Origin: Mycobacterium sp. Root265
Lineage (GTDB): Bacteria > Actinomycetota > Actinomycetes > Mycobacteriales > Mycobacteriaceae
Assembly: GCF_001428895.1 (NCBI RefSeq)
Contig: NZ_LMJA01000030.1
Location: forward strand, 459,020 to 523,019
Length of the DNA stretch: 64,000 bases
Direction of reading: 5' to 3'
Shown here: positions 38,476 through 42,320 of the stretch, one piece after another
Numbering within the stretch: the stretch's first letter is position 1
Layout of the letters: every line of letters begins with the position of its first letter
Program-made: the position numbers and the translations under genes
The notes under the pieces: generated by a model
What the model was told of the DNA's origin: nothing
What the model saw: the letters and a program-made list of their open reading frames with translations, nothing else
The model's database searches: none

Positions 38476-39045
38476 TCAGCTGGAGTGCAGGTGTAGCCGT
38501 TCCCCGTGGACGTCGAAGATCATGATGGCCTCGACCGGTCCGTCGACGGTGCCGAACCAATGTGGCGTCCAGGTGGAAAACTCCACGGCTTCACCGGGTT
38601 TGATGATGAAATCGCGTTCGCCCAGCACCAGACGCAATTGCCCGGAGAGCACGTACATCCATTCCTGACCCTCATGGACGGGAAGCTCGGCCGGTGGCGT
38701 GTTGCGCTTGGTGCTCACCCGCACCTTGAACGTGTGCCGGCCGCCGGTCGGGCCCTGACGGGTCAACGGCCAGTAGGTGACCCCGTGGCGGGTGTGGGAG
38801 CTGCCCCGGACCCGCGGGTCTTCGGACTCCGGTTCGCGCAGCAGCTCGTCGGTGCTGACCGACAGCGCCAGGGCCAGCCGGGGCAGGTGATCCAGGGCCA
38901 GCCGCCGTTTCCCGGATTCCAGTCGGCTCAGTGTGGACACGTCGATGCTGGCGCGGGCGGCCACATCCTGCAGTGTCAGGCCTTGCTGGGTGCGCAGATC
39001 CCGTAACCGCTTGCGGACGGTGTCGTCGACGCTCTTTGCCTCCAT
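38476..39045 (-). CDS. XRE-cupin transcriptional regulator
   Basis: Protein of 189 residues. The N-terminal XRE helix-turn-helix (LRDLRTQQGLTLQDVAARASIDVSTLSRLESGKR) spans about residues 13-50. The C-terminal cupin_2 domain (LPVHEGQEWMYVLSGQLRLVLGERDFIIKPGEAVEFSTWTPHWF, seen by its HEGQEW and PHWF ends) would bind a small molecule or metal. It is divergent from the oxidoreductase-methyltransferase fusion across 47 bp with an inverted repeat, so it probably regulates it. It ends directly at the RNase H stop (convergent). Confidence 0.9.
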   Translation of the reverse strand: MEAKSVDDTVRKRLRDLRTQQGLTLQDVAARASIDVSTLSRLESGKRRLALDHLPRLALALSVSTDELLREPESEDPRVRGSSHTRHGVTYWPLTRQGPTGGRHTFKVRVSTKRNTPPAELPVHEGQEWMYVLSGQLRLVLGERDFIIKPGEAVEFSTWTPHWFGTVDGPVEAIMIFDVHGERLHLHSS

Positions 39046-39051
39046 GGCAAA

Positions 39052-39087
39052 CGAGCTTGGCATTTTGTCCGCTGATCGGCAAGCTCG
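39052..39087. promoter_or_regulatory. Inverted repeat in the XRE / oxidoreductase divergent promoter
   Basis: CGAGCTTG (39052-39059) and CAAGCTCG (39080-39087) are exact reverse complements 20 bp apart, centred in the 47-bp gap between the divergent start codons. They could be two half-sites, two turns of helix apart, for the XRE-cupin protein. They could also be a folded leader element. Confidence 0.45.
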
Positions 39088-39092
39088 ATGAC

Positions 39093-40625
39093 ATGAACAA
39101 CGAATGGGACTGCATCATCGTCGGTGGCGGCGCGGCCGGCCTGAGCGCGGCACTGGTACTCGGCCGCGCCCGGCGTCGCACGCTGGTCCTCGATGACGGT
39201 GACCAGAGCAACCTGGCTGCGCACGGCATCGGCGGACTGCTGGGTCACGACGGCCGCCCGCCCGCTGAACTCTACGAGGCGGGCCGCGCGGAACTCGCGG
39301 AATACCCGAACGTCACCTTCCGGCCGGTGCGGGTGACCGCCGCCAAAGCGGACGGGCCGGGCTTCGTCGTCGAACTTGCCGATGGCGGCCACGAACATGC
39401 GCGCCGCCTGCTGCTGGCGACCGGTATGCAGTACCAGCCGCCGCAGATCGCGGGCCTTGAGGCGCTGTGGGGCGGCTCGGCTTTCCACTGTCCGTTCTGC
39501 CACGGGTGGGAGGTTCGTGATCAGCCGCTGGCCGTGCTCGCCGATGGGGACCGCGCTGTGCACATGGCGCTGATGCTCAAGGGCTGGACCGACGATATCG
39601 TCGTGCTCAGCAATGGCGCGGGCCTGCAGAATGACCTGCTGACAGCCGCGGACATCGCCGTGGACGACCGGCAGGTCAGCGAATTCCATTCCGAGGGTGG
39701 CGTATTGACCGAGGTGCGGTTCGCCGAGGGCCCACCGCTGCCGCGGCGGGGTGTGCTGGTAGCCGCTGTCCTGCACCAGCGTTCCCACCTGGCAGCCCAT
39801 CTCGGGGTGGACTTCGCGCCGGCGAGTCCTGTTGCCGCCGATGCCATCGTCGTCGACCAGTTCCAGCGCACCACGGTGCCCGGGGTGTTCGCCGCCGGCG
39901 ATGTCAGCGTGCAGATGCCTCAGGTGGCGGCCGCGGTGGCCAGCGGATCGCTGGCGGCGGCTGCCGTGGTGCAGAGTCTGCTGGCCGATGACGTCGGGCT
40001 GCCCGTTCCGCCGTGGCCGGCGCCCGATGTCCAACAGCACTGGAACGAGCACTACGGCCAGCGCGATCGCGTCTGGAGTGGCCGGGTGAACCTCCGGCTC
40101 TCCGAGGTGGCGGAGTCGCTGGCACCCGGGCGCGCCCTGGACCTGGGATGCGGTGAGGGTGGCGACGCCATCTGGCTGGCGTCGCGGGGGTGGTCGGTGG
40201 TTGCGACCGATGTCTCACACGTGGCACTGGAACGGGCCGCCGCTGACGCGGGGGAGTTGTTGAGCCAGATCGACTTTCAGCACCACGATCTGGAGGTGAG
40301 TTTCCCGGACGGCGAGTTCGATCTGGTGTCCGCACAGTTCCTGCATTCGAAGATTCCGCTGGACCGGGCGCGCGTGTTGAAGCGGGCGGCGGTTGCGGTC
40401 GCGCCCGGGGGTCTGCTGGTGATCGTCGACCATGGCGAGGCTCCGCCCTGGTCGAACCACCGGCACGTCGAGTTCCCCGGTGCCGAGGAAGTGGTGGGAT
40501 CACTCGACCTTGACGACGGCTGGGAACGCGTGCAGGTTGGCCCGGTCGAGCGCGAGGCGACCGGACCCGACGGGCAGCCGGGGCATCTGATCGACAATGT
40601 GATGGTGCTGCGGCGGAGTCACTGA
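39093..40625 (+). CDS. Thioredoxin-reductase-like flavoprotein fused to SAM methyltransferase
   Basis: Protein of 510 residues. Residues 1-300 resemble thioredoxin reductase: FAD motif CIIVGGGAAGLSAALVLG, redox pair Cys133-Cys136 in HCPFCHGWE, and FAD motif TTVPGVFAAGDVS. The CPFCHG form resembles fungal/bacterial dithiol oxidases (GliT/HlmI type) more than the CATCDG of true reductases, and the usual NADPH motif GGGDSA is degenerate (LADGDRAVH). Residues about 310-510 are a class I SAM methyltransferase with Asp350 in DLGCGEGGDA and a TehB-like WNEHYGQRDRVW start. It may oxidise and S-methylate thiols or dithiols; this is inference. Overall fusions of this type are known as annotations without characterised function. 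Confidence 0.9.
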   Translation: MNNEWDCIIVGGGAAGLSAALVLGRARRRTLVLDDGDQSNLAAHGIGGLLGHDGRPPAELYEAGRAELAEYPNVTFRPVRVTAAKADGPGFVVELADGGHEHARRLLLATGMQYQPPQIAGLEALWGGSAFHCPFCHGWEVRDQPLAVLADGDRAVHMALMLKGWTDDIVVLSNGAGLQNDLLTAADIAVDDRQVSEFHSEGGVLTEVRFAEGPPLPRRGVLVAAVLHQRSHLAAHLGVDFAPASPVAADAIVVDQFQRTTVPGVFAAGDVSVQMPQVAAAVASGSLAAAAVVQSLLADDVGLPVPPWPAPDVQQHWNEHYGQRDRVWSGRVNLRLSEVAESLAPGRALDLGCGEGGDAIWLASRGWSVVATDVSHVALERAAADAGELLSQIDFQHHDLEVSFPDGEFDLVSAQFLHSKIPLDRARVLKRAAVAVAPGGLLVIVDHGEAPPWSNHRHVEFPGAEEVVGSLDLDDGWERVQVGPVEREATGPDGQPGHLIDNVMVLRRSH

Positions 40626-40678
40626 AAGTTATCCACAGGCTCACGCATTTCCCCTCGCCACATGTCGTGGCCGGGCGG

Positions 40679-40684
40679 TAAAAT
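40679..40684 (+). promoter_or_regulatory. -10 box of a leaderless promoter (13E12 HNH gene)
   Basis: TAAAAT lies 7 nt before the start codon at 40692, the spacing expected when transcription begins at the A of ATG. No ribosome-binding site is present, which supports a leaderless mRNA. Confidence 0.65.
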
Positions 40685-40699
40685 CGAACACATGTTCGA
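40684..40699. promoter_or_regulatory. LexA SOS box overlapping the start codon
   Basis: TCGAAC-ACAT-GTTCGA is a perfect match to the mycobacterial LexA box (TCGAAC-N4-GTTCGA). It overlaps the end of the -10 box, the predicted start point and the ATG at 40692-40694. LexA binding here would block transcription directly. Members of the 13E12 repeat family with SOS boxes are known in M. tuberculosis. Confidence 0.9.
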
Positions 40700-42320
40700 A
40701 GTCTTGGATCGGGCCGCACTCGCTGGGTTGAGCGATGACGCGCTCATCTCGGCGGTGACTGCGACGACCCGAAACGAGGCGTCGGTGGCGGCTTACCGGT
40801 TGGCGTTGATCGGTGAGGTGGTGGCCCGCCAGTGCGATGACGAGGATGACACGGTTGCCCATCAGGTCATTGATGGTTGGGCGTGGGCGCAGGCCGCGGT
40901 GGCGGCGGCCTGCAATCTGAATCCGCACGCGGCGTCCAAGCAGATGCGCATCGCCCAGGCTTTGCGTGACCGGCTGCCCCGCACCGCGGCCCTGTTCGCC
41001 AAGGGTGCGATCTCGATGGCGGTGATCGATGCGATCACCTGGCGCACCCACCTGGTCGTCGACGATGACGCTCTGGTGTTGATCGATACCGCGATCGCCG
41101 GGGAGGCGGGCGAGTACGGGGCGCATTCGGAGAAGCAGTTGATCGGTGCCATCGATCTGTGGGTGGAGAAGTTCGACCCCGAAGCCGTGGTGCGCTCAAA
41201 ACGTAACGCCAAGGACGTCTATGTCGAGTTCGACGATAAGGACGATCCCAACGGGGTCGCCTCGTTCTGGGGGCGGCTGCGTGTCACCGACAAAAAGGTG
41301 CTGGAGAAACGCCTCAATGACCTGGCGGACACCGTCTGTGGCAATGATCCCCGCGCGCGTGGCGAGCTACGTGCGGCCGCCTTGGCCGCGTTGGGTGTGG
41401 TGGGCCCGCAACTGGAACGGCTGGCGTGTGGGTGTGGGGATGCCGGCTGCCAGGGCAGCGGGAAGGATCCGCGCTCGACGGCGGTGACGATCTATGTGCT
41501 GACCGACCAGGTGCCCGCTGCCGGTGAAGGGTCTCCGCGGCACACCACCCCGGGCAGTGCGGGCACCCCGGAAACGCAGCCCGCCGAGACCGGACCGGCC
41601 GCGCCCGACGCCGAGCAGCAGGCACCGCCGGCGGAGAACGCGCCGCAGACGCCAGCAGCGGAGTCCGGGCCTGCTGCGCCCGCGGCCAACACCCAACCCG
41701 CGGCCTGCAACCCTAGCCCCGGCGTGATGCTCGACGGCGCCATCATCCCGGCCGCCATGCTGGCCGACCTCGTCGCGTCCGGCGCCACAGTGAAGCCGCT
41801 CTCCGAGATCGCCGACCTACCCGCCGAGCGCCAATACCGGCCCTCGACCGCACTGACCGCGTTCGTCCGCATGCGCGCCATGACCTGCAGCTTCCCCGGC
41901 TGCAACCGGGCCGCCCACCGCTGCGACCTCGACCACCTGACCCCATGGCCGGCAGGGGCGACCCATCCGGGCAACCTGGCACCGCTGTGTCGTCTGCATC
42001 ATTTGATCAAGACCTTCTGCGGCTGGACACCCACCGCCCAACCCGACGGCCGTATCCAATGGTCAGCACCGACCGGGCACACCTACACGAAGGCCCCCGG
42101 CGCGGCAATCATGTTCCCGCACTGGAACATCGAGACTCCCATCCCACGGAAACGCGCCATCCGGCTGATCAACGACGCCGACCTCCACACCAAGATGCCG
42201 GTCCGAAAACGCACCCGCGCACAAGACCGCGCCCAACGCATCAAAACCGAACGCACCCGCAACCAACTCGAACTCGCCCTCGAACTCGCCCAGAACGACA
42301 GCGACCCGCCACCGTTCTGA
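40692..42320 (+). CDS. 13E12/DUF222 family HNH endonuclease-like protein
   Basis: Protein of 542 residues with an N-terminal DUF222 domain (about 1-250) and a Pro/Ala-rich linker (about 280-345: PAETGPAAPDAEQQAPPAEN and similar). The C-terminal HNH domain runs CSFPGCNRAAHRCDLDHLTPWPAG to NLAPLCRLHHLIKTFCGW, with a Cys pair, the H-N-H residues and LCRLHH zinc ligands. Families like this occur in several copies in mycobacteria and are probably mobile. Perfect SOS box and leaderless start. Lys/Arg-rich tail. It ends 2 bp before the convergent VOC gene. Its cutting activity is not proven for the family. Confidence 0.92.
   Translation: MFEVLDRAALAGLSDDALISAVTATTRNEASVAAYRLALIGEVVARQCDDEDDTVAHQVIDGWAWAQAAVAAACNLNPHAASKQMRIAQALRDRLPRTAALFAKGAISMAVIDAITWRTHLVVDDDALVLIDTAIAGEAGEYGAHSEKQLIGAIDLWVEKFDPEAVVRSKRNAKDVYVEFDDKDDPNGVASFWGRLRVTDKKVLEKRLNDLADTVCGNDPRARGELRAAALAALGVVGPQLERLACGCGDAGCQGSGKDPRSTAVTIYVLTDQVPAAGEGSPRHTTPGSAGTPETQPAETGPAAPDAEQQAPPAENAPQTPAAESGPAAPAANTQPAACNPSPGVMLDGAIIPAAMLADLVASGATVKPLSEIADLPAERQYRPSTALTAFVRMRAMTCSFPGCNRAAHRCDLDHLTPWPAGATHPGNLAPLCRLHHLIKTFCGWTPTAQPDGRIQWSAPTGHTYTKAPGAAIMFPHWNIETPIPRKRAIRLINDADLHTKMPVRKRTRAQDRAQRIKTERTRNQLELALELAQNDSDPPPF

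Follow-up and report, generated by a model that had tools for sequence, protein, structure and literature searches.

According to the consulted part of PMC11317636, all dithiol oxidases described before DnoP were known from natural-product clusters. GliT and GtmA/TmtA, an oxidase and a bis-thiomethyltransferase, act on one dithiol as two proteins (PMC10500201, consulted part). Among small-thiol methyltransferases, MddM1 (210 residues) acts on sulfide, methanethiol, ethanethiol and propanethiol, not on coenzyme A, cysteine, glutathione or coenzyme M; it is induced by sulfide, methanethiol and H2O2, and its homologues occur mostly in Streptomyces, Mycobacterium and Mycolicibacterium (PMC12904073, consulted part). 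Here we analysed a 64,000-nucleotide stretch of the genome of Mycobacterium sp. Root265, a soil-type mycobacterium (contig NZ_LMJA01000030.1, positions 459,020 to 523,019; hereafter the window, whose numbering is used throughout) that encodes a dithiol-oxidase-like flavoprotein fused to a class I S-adenosylmethionine (SAM) methyltransferase, next to a divergent gene for an XRE-cupin regulator. The fusion, the family of the flavoprotein, the loss of its NADPH (reduced nicotinamide adenine dinucleotide phosphate) motifs, the genetic linkage and a conserved palindrome are outcomes of the computations. The reactions, the repression and the ligand we infer, and we assign a probability of about 0.6 to the reading that this cassette is a regulated module that rids the cell of toxic small thiols, S-methylating and oxidising them in parallel. 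Each component belongs to a known kind, and what makes the cassette a novel variation on them is the fusion together with its regulator, operator and sulfur setting. A literature search of open-access papers found no publication on the fused protein or the cassette, and their function is absent from the papers searched.

The initial annotation held that both halves form one polypeptide, and this is borne out by an uninterrupted frame on the forward strand (39093-40625, from the ATG at 39093 to the stop at 40625) that encodes 510 residues, with a short linker between the halves. Pfam matches on the fusion protein comprise Pyr_redox_2 (66 bits) and several methyltransferase families. The whole fusion is present without a stop in 20 other genomes at 63-94% identity (198 genus genomes searched). 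Relatives with a name, at 93-94%, are M. vanbaalenii BC8_1, M. frederiksbergense LB 501T and Mycolicibacterium sp. P9-22. Because it is stop-free in these 20 genomes and is accompanied by the divergent regulator, the fusion is not a chance product. It is single-copy in the 6.67-Mb host genome. The predicted model of the full protein has a mean predicted local distance difference test score (pLDDT) of 88.7 and a predicted template modelling score (pTM) of 0.65, the latter leaving the mutual arrangement of the halves unsettled. RefSeq presumably names such an architecture 'bifunctional NAD(P)/FAD-dependent oxidoreductase/class I SAM-dependent methyltransferase', a label that implies no function.

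Features of the regulator-fusion locus (window positions)
Feature	Position	Strand	Basis or remark
XRE-cupin regulator gene, revised start 39045, 189 residues	38476..39045	-	HTH_3 50.2 bits, Cupin_2 49.6 bits; listed open reading frame to 39063 (195 residues)
Putative operator TTTGCC-N5-GGCAAA, over regulator start codon	39035..39051		Conserved palindrome
Inverted repeat of the initial annotation, 8-nt arms 39052-39059 and 39080-39087	39052..39087		Perfect arms in 2 of 91 distinct loci
Putative -35 of the fusion gene, TTGGCA	39057..39062	+	Pattern in 85 of 91 distinct loci
Putative -10, CAAGCT, 7 nt before ATG	39080..39085	+	Same pattern, 85 of 91 loci
Flavoprotein half, residues 1-305, dithiol-oxidase-like	39093..40007	+	Profile and Foldseek
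Redox CxxC, Cys133 and Cys136	39489..39500	+	Invariant in 25 of 25 fused homologues
LADGDRAVH (residues 149-157), at the aligned place of GGGDSA	39537..39563	+	Neither a GGGDSA-type motif nor HRR in any of the 25 rows
Class I SAM methyltransferase half, residues 312-510	40026..40622	+	Pfam matches to Methyltransf_25/11/23, TPMT and TehB
SAM-binding motif I, LDLGCGEGGDA	40137..40169	+	Residues mostly invariant or nearly so

A profile built from 25 fused homologues scored highest against HlmI (333 bits), followed by 3fbs (296), DepH (274), 4fk1 (241) and GliT (207), while AclR, an oxidoreductase with CXXH, reached 166 bits, Gll2934 152 bits, and the other entries called thioredoxin reductase (besides HlmI and 4fk1) at most 147 bits. 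A Foldseek search with the predicted model placed 3fbs, DepH, 4fk1, HlmI and GliT on top, in that order; the uncharacterised 3fbs and 4fk1 are thus as close as the solved dithiol oxidases. The HCPFCHGWE motif with its two cysteines is present, as initially annotated, and alignment confirms that the GGGDSA-type motif has given way to LADGDRAVH. Together with HRR it is missing at the aligned places in all 25 fused homologues (a loose match to the GGGDSA pattern in L014 is off the aligned place). The complete NADPH-binding site named as the contrary outcome did not appear. The genome's own separate thioredoxin reductase (L005), a 29% match, carries CATC, GGGDSA and HRR, and the thioredoxin reductase model TIGR01292 gives the fusion protein 89 bits against a cut-off of 343. 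Identity as an NADPH thioredoxin reductase (TrxB) was rejected on the missing motifs and this score. Sequence, profile and fold agree with the earlier view that this half is closer to GliT/HlmI dithiol oxidases than to thioredoxin reductase. By fold family, CxxC and NADPH-motif loss, the flavoprotein half is assigned to the GliT/HlmI/DepH type, and O2-dependent dithiol oxidation is predicted for this half.

The methyltransferase half, modelled separately, yielded a mean pLDDT of 92.9 and a pTM of 0.90. Pfam TPMT and TehB models match all 46 members of the methyltransferase family. The TPMT model (PF05724) passes its gathering score of 26 with 36.0 bits on the whole protein and 38.2 bits on the half, with generic methyltransferase models scoring higher, so that this is weak evidence on the substrate. 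Foldseek was led by TehB (PDB 2xvm and 4dq0; E 1.6e-14, 22-23% identity) and VIA-align by METTL6; the scores are close, and neither fold nor profile decides the substrate. Membership in TehB was rejected, the NCBIfam TehB equivalog score of 43.3 bits lying far below the cut-off of 218. The proposal that this half is of a thiol or chalcogen type therefore stands in part: the TPMT/TehB Pfam matches and the Foldseek result agree with it, but there is no clear grouping with S-, O- or N-methyltransferases, which also means that the contrary outcome, a clear grouping with O- or N-methyltransferases, did not appear. From profiles and predicted structure, a thiol or chalcogen enzyme is plausible.

Next to the fusion, a regulator gene with an N-terminal HTH_3 and a C-terminal Cupin_2 domain, both above Pfam cut-offs, agrees with the annotated divergent XRE-cupin protein. 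Its start is most likely at 39045 (MEAKSVDD...) and not at 39063, because the ATG there sits inside the conserved palindrome. At E 1e-60 the regulator was found in 128 of the 198 genus genomes (own included), all 128 of which have a match to an enzyme half, against 23 of the remaining 70 (Fisher p 2e-28, ignoring shared ancestry). Cysteines are rare in the 113 aligned regulator segments (none in 104, one in 8, two in 1), which speaks against a thiol switch. Two histidines, His130 and His168, never vary, and Asp or Glu occupies position 134 in 98% (numbering of the 195-residue frame). The regulator is thus probably not a thiol switch, and the conserved His130/Asp-Glu134/His168 would fit a metal or ligand site.

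The 6.67-Mb genome contains TTTGCC-N5-GGCAAA once and its reversed control nowhere. Near the starts of 93 regulators with at least 60% identity, the palindrome is perfect in 72, has one mismatch in 18, two in 2 and three in 1; mononucleotide-shuffled starts reach one mismatch or fewer in 0.05%, with the caveat that the palindrome covers the regulator start codon, which alone could conserve part of it. Copies also stand elsewhere. In L169, L255 and L258, Mycolicibacter-type relatives in which a PF03601 transporter gene intervenes, the palindrome precedes the flavoprotein or methyltransferase gene: L169 (L254 is probably the same record) carries the exact copy TTTGCCTTTTTGGCAAA upstream of the enzyme gene and clear of any start codon, along with a perfect regulator copy, and L255 and L258 carry the exact copy TTTGCCTGGATGGCAAA before the enzyme gene, the regulator copy in L255 having two mismatches. 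Among 22 regulators below 60% identity (two from the own genome), five have at most one mismatch and four have two, with other middles and places. The copies distant from start codons and those of divergent regulators speak against conservation by the start codon only. Across the genus, an exact palindrome is present in 99 of 196 genomes, namely in 87 of the 126 that have the regulator and in 12 of the 70 that lack it (reversed control, 13 of 196), and some copies are located away from the cassette.

These results point to the palindrome at 39035-39051 as the likely operator. The initial annotation had placed control in an inverted repeat at 39052-39087; its letters exist, but it is not conserved as a repeat, spans the -35/-10-like region, and was rejected as operator on the rarity of its perfect arms. 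The promoter pattern, TTGGC[AG] or TTGCCA, 17-18 nt and CAA[GC][CG]T, was found in 85 of 91 distinct loci, all picked for CATG within the palindrome, and the fusion transcript is possibly leaderless. The half-sites TTGCC and GGCAA have no occurrence in the main text of PMC12565409, which treats XRE palindromes. Several sites stand apart. The next methyltransferase match in the host genome, a separate gene with 41% identity to this half (G000:C29:125076-125681; L002, L071), has a palindrome-like site with two mismatches just upstream. A one-mismatch palindrome lies before a lone flavoprotein gene at L139 5944-5960, where no regulator was found, and is perhaps a relic. The 12 genomes with an exact palindrome and no regulator match at E 1e-60 (G399, G408, G438, G446, G474, G478, G520, G534, G547, G558, G559 and G574) may reflect chance or another regulator.

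At E 1e-40, a match to either half was found in 79 of 396 phylum genomes and in 151 of 198 genus genomes (own included). Among 79 named loci, taken from the best 80 of 495 relatives and hence weighted towards close ones, 65 contain the regulator together with both enzymes, 27 as fusions in standard order; one Amycolatopsis locus (L163) is fused with no regulator match at threshold, and 13 have the flavoprotein alone. The palindrome with at most one mismatch accompanies 64 of the 65 full loci against 1 of the 14 others. The 11 methyltransferase-only genus loci retrieved (picked by match coverage, two already known) likewise all have the regulator and the palindrome with at most one mismatch. 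In other families, L015, L016, L017 and L019 have an XRE-cupin gene beside the flavoprotein, and no methyltransferase was seen in the ~1.5 kb read. Of 30 methyltransferase loci in the genus of G334, 9 have a flavoprotein within 1.5 kb and 7 a regulator, with both in 1 of these. Beside the same regulator the two enzymes may be fused, encoded by two genes, or represented by only one of the pair. A tree was built from 102 flavoprotein rows, the remainder of 147 once near-copies had been removed; sequences containing stops or with short coverage had been excluded earlier. On this tree the fused state requires seven changes, at least four of them forced by starred branches under a quick method; by this tree, fusion or fission occurred at least four times. 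Together, the varied arrangements and the repeated fusion under one regulator and palindrome indicate a functional link between flavoprotein and methyltransferase that is firm for a purely computational case. A single plasmid record covers 80% of the fusion protein and carries no annotation there, no flavoprotein is annotated adjacent to the Streptomyces clavuligerus plasmid methyltransferase, and a suspected insertion in L167 was rejected as a stretch of N.

The genes around the cassette include sulfur genes in a few clades, partly picked for readability. The PF03601 transporter between regulator and enzymes in L169 scores 285 bits (cut-off 24.5) and has homologues at 92-93% in L255 and L258; the NCBIfam YeiH model gives the L255 protein 126.8, below its cut-off of 232.6. 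In L256 (2881-4408) and L257 (2593-4120), cysK and a cysE-type gene stand between the XRE-cupin gene and the flavoprotein and methyltransferase genes (L257, cysK 447 bits with cut-off 351 and cysE 229 with cut-off 211; L256, cysK 444 bits by scan and cysE by eye), and L256 has a palindrome-like site with two mismatches before the flavoprotein gene. The cassette cysK is the sole close cysK match in the genomes of L256 and L257, and three relatives have a close cysK on a different contig from the cassette. In the window genome (G000), the CysK query from L257 finds only a 45% match passing E 1e-60, compared with 85-100% in five relatives, and the usual cysK may be absent or divergent. In one genus, a mycothiol-S-transferase gene (PF04978) lies directly downstream of the methyltransferase (L186 4467-4964, L190 4483-4959, L191 4492-4980); among the 30 methyltransferase loci of the genus of G334, L202 gave a weak match to this family and the other 29 none. 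A 48%-identical methyltransferase on a Rhodococcus plasmid is surrounded by DsrE, TauE/SafE, rhodanese and CcdA, and an Rrf2 regulator precedes flavoprotein and methyltransferase in Deinococcus aetherius and stands beside them in L181 and L193.

Disposal of toxic reduced sulfur compounds is the probable role, because in relatives the components are encoded separately and, in a few lineages, have sulfur genes next to them. In the proposed mechanism, the flavoprotein half would use its CxxC, flavin adenine dinucleotide (FAD) and oxygen to oxidise thiols, preferably paired ones, to disulfides without NADPH, as HlmI, DepH, GliT and DnoP do, and the methyltransferase half would convert free thiols to thioethers with SAM as methyl donor. 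Both enzymes would work in parallel on the same kind of compound. Such parallel action would explain why either enzyme is dispensable in some species and why fusion recurred. Bound to TTTGCC-N5-GGCAAA, which overlaps the regulator's start codon and adjoins the -35 element of the fusion gene, the XRE-cupin protein would repress both genes and be released once a ligand enters the cupin pocket.

Several results weigh against this role. In the comparison of the methyltransferase half, METTL6, TehB, Rv0560c, the echinomycin enzyme and N- and halide methyltransferases all fall in a span of two Z units. Eight of the 11 genomes with a methyltransferase-only locus have no second match passing E 1e-40, so the two enzymes need not act together, and for 15 of the 30 methyltransferase loci in the genus of G334 no regulator and no flavoprotein was found up to 1.5 kb away. 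The neighbour scan (119 proteins listed, three dropped, 116 from 18 loci pooled as a mock alignment) returned 142 Pfam families; of the first 25 shown, 23 occur in two or three members, the remainder in a single one, and since most families occur once, sulfur genes form the smaller share of the neighbours. Some of the genes directly adjoining the cassette, such as those for AraC regulators and an MscS channel, are unrelated. As for the operator, 13 of the 22 regulators below 60% identity have three to five palindrome mismatches, and the L258 regulator lacks a copy within two mismatches.

A narrower form of the thiol-disposal reading is a real possibility, though one we hold tentatively: an MddM1-type methyltransferase would act on sulfide, methanethiol or small alkyl thiols and make dimethylsulfide, and the flavoprotein would oxidise thiols or persulfides formed under sulfide stress. 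The size, class and host range of MddM1 and the sulfur neighbours of a few clades fit; a dithiol-oxidase fold, however, is unexpected for monothiols, and MddM1 is reported from 19.75% of Streptomyces (PMC12904073) against 79 of 121 genomes with the present methyltransferase family at E 1e-30 in the genus of G334, taken to be Streptomyces.

The other narrower form, which completes the thiol-disposal reading, was the initial annotation's and seems rather unlikely by itself, is defence against dithiol natural products of fungi and streptomycetes (epidithiodiketopiperazines, dithiolopyrrolones) by re-oxidation and S-methylation, like GliT with GtmA. The nearest characterised relatives of the flavoprotein are indeed HlmI, DepH and GliT. 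Foldseek ranked ninth for the methyltransferase model 4nec, presumably Ecm18, the methyltransferase that makes a thioacetal from a disulfide in echinomycin synthesis. Gliotoxin acts strongly on M. tuberculosis, and the holomycin bis-thiomethylating enzyme is undiscovered (PMC10500201, consulted part); when hlmI is deleted, intermediates with one or two S-methyl groups result (PMC3826145, consulted part). Of the one-protein dithiol system first proposed, the flavoprotein type and the linkage across many species stood, but simple reduced sulfur is at least as likely a target as holomycin-like dithiols, given the sulfur neighbours of a few relatives and MddM1 (PMC12904073).

A biosynthetic pair making the methylthio or disulfide group of some metabolite in these bacteria has poor odds. 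HlmI and DepH are biosynthetic and the methyltransferase is as widespread in the genus of G334 as stated (79 of 121), but the neighbourhoods examined share no common biosynthetic gene set, and the same gene, presumably an RNase H/CobC-type housekeeping gene, adjoins the cassette in the window, L169 and L255-L258. Equally improbable is TehB-like tellurite or selenite methylation with the flavoprotein half as reductase, which the leading TehB structures and the 46 of 46 Pfam TehB matches favour but which the NCBIfam score (43 bits against 218), the lack of NADPH motifs and the absence of a tellurite family from the 25 shown of 142 neighbour families and from 20 neighbours scanned singly contradict.

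Other neighbouring genes gave side observations. Directly after the fusion lies a gene for a DUF222 (PF02720) protein (40662-42320), presumably of the 13E12-repeat kind; the remaining window genes were mostly read by eye. Clustering of open frames for shared mycobacterial neighbours gave mainly synteny and antisense frames. In 14 loci (L121-L124, L126, L143-L145, L149, L150, L152, L158, L160 and L161), an MmpL-like transporter, identified by eye, is encoded no more than 6 kb from the flavoprotein; nine of these loci have only the flavoprotein and five the complete cassette.

If the thiol-disposal reading is true, mycobacteria and other actinobacteria would possess an inducible pathway dedicated to toxic-thiol disposal, whose regulator and operator are directly testable, and dithiol oxidases would be linked to thiol methylation and dimethylsulfide production. 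The family would also offer candidates for the bacterial dithiol S-methylating enzyme that, for holomycin, a 2023 review calls undiscovered (PMC10500201, consulted part). A far-reaching version, which we regard as unlikely, would make the cassette the centre of a sulfur-stress regulon that is widespread among actinobacteria and has a conserved operator of its own, joining O2 oxidation and SAM methylation in one polypeptide, sensing through a cupin metal (H130, D/E134, H168) and not through cysteine oxidation, recruiting the main cysteine synthase genes and a PF03601 transporter in some lineages, and including the missing bacterial thiol methyltransferase that backs HlmI-like oxidases.

Among known systems, HlmI (PDB 4ntd), DepH (4jn9, 4nte) and GliT of Aspergillus fumigatus (4ntc) share the fold of the flavoprotein half, and HlmI and DepH also share CPxC with the following HG. 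They are single enzymes inside biosynthetic clusters (PMC11317636, consulted part), whereas the fusion has a methyltransferase, a divergent XRE-cupin gene and no recognised cluster. By description, the cassette resembles DnoP (PA4170) of Pseudomonas aeruginosa, a dithiol oxidase defending a non-producer of such toxins; DnoP differs in belonging to the DepH group and in being induced by zinc starvation, and 'methyltransferase' is absent from the consulted main text of the same source (PMC11317636). TehB (2xvm, 4dq0) is the closest Foldseek match of the methyltransferase half, yet at an identity and an NCBIfam score that set it well apart. MddM1 of Mycolicibacterium poriferae is likewise similar by description, a predicted-cytoplasmic SAM methyltransferase of ~200 residues from the same host genera (PMC12904073, consulted part). 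By its description it differs in standing alone, with neither a regulator nor a flavoprotein named alongside it, and 'oxidoreductase', 'XRE', 'fusion' and 'thioredoxin' are absent from the main text of PMC12904073.

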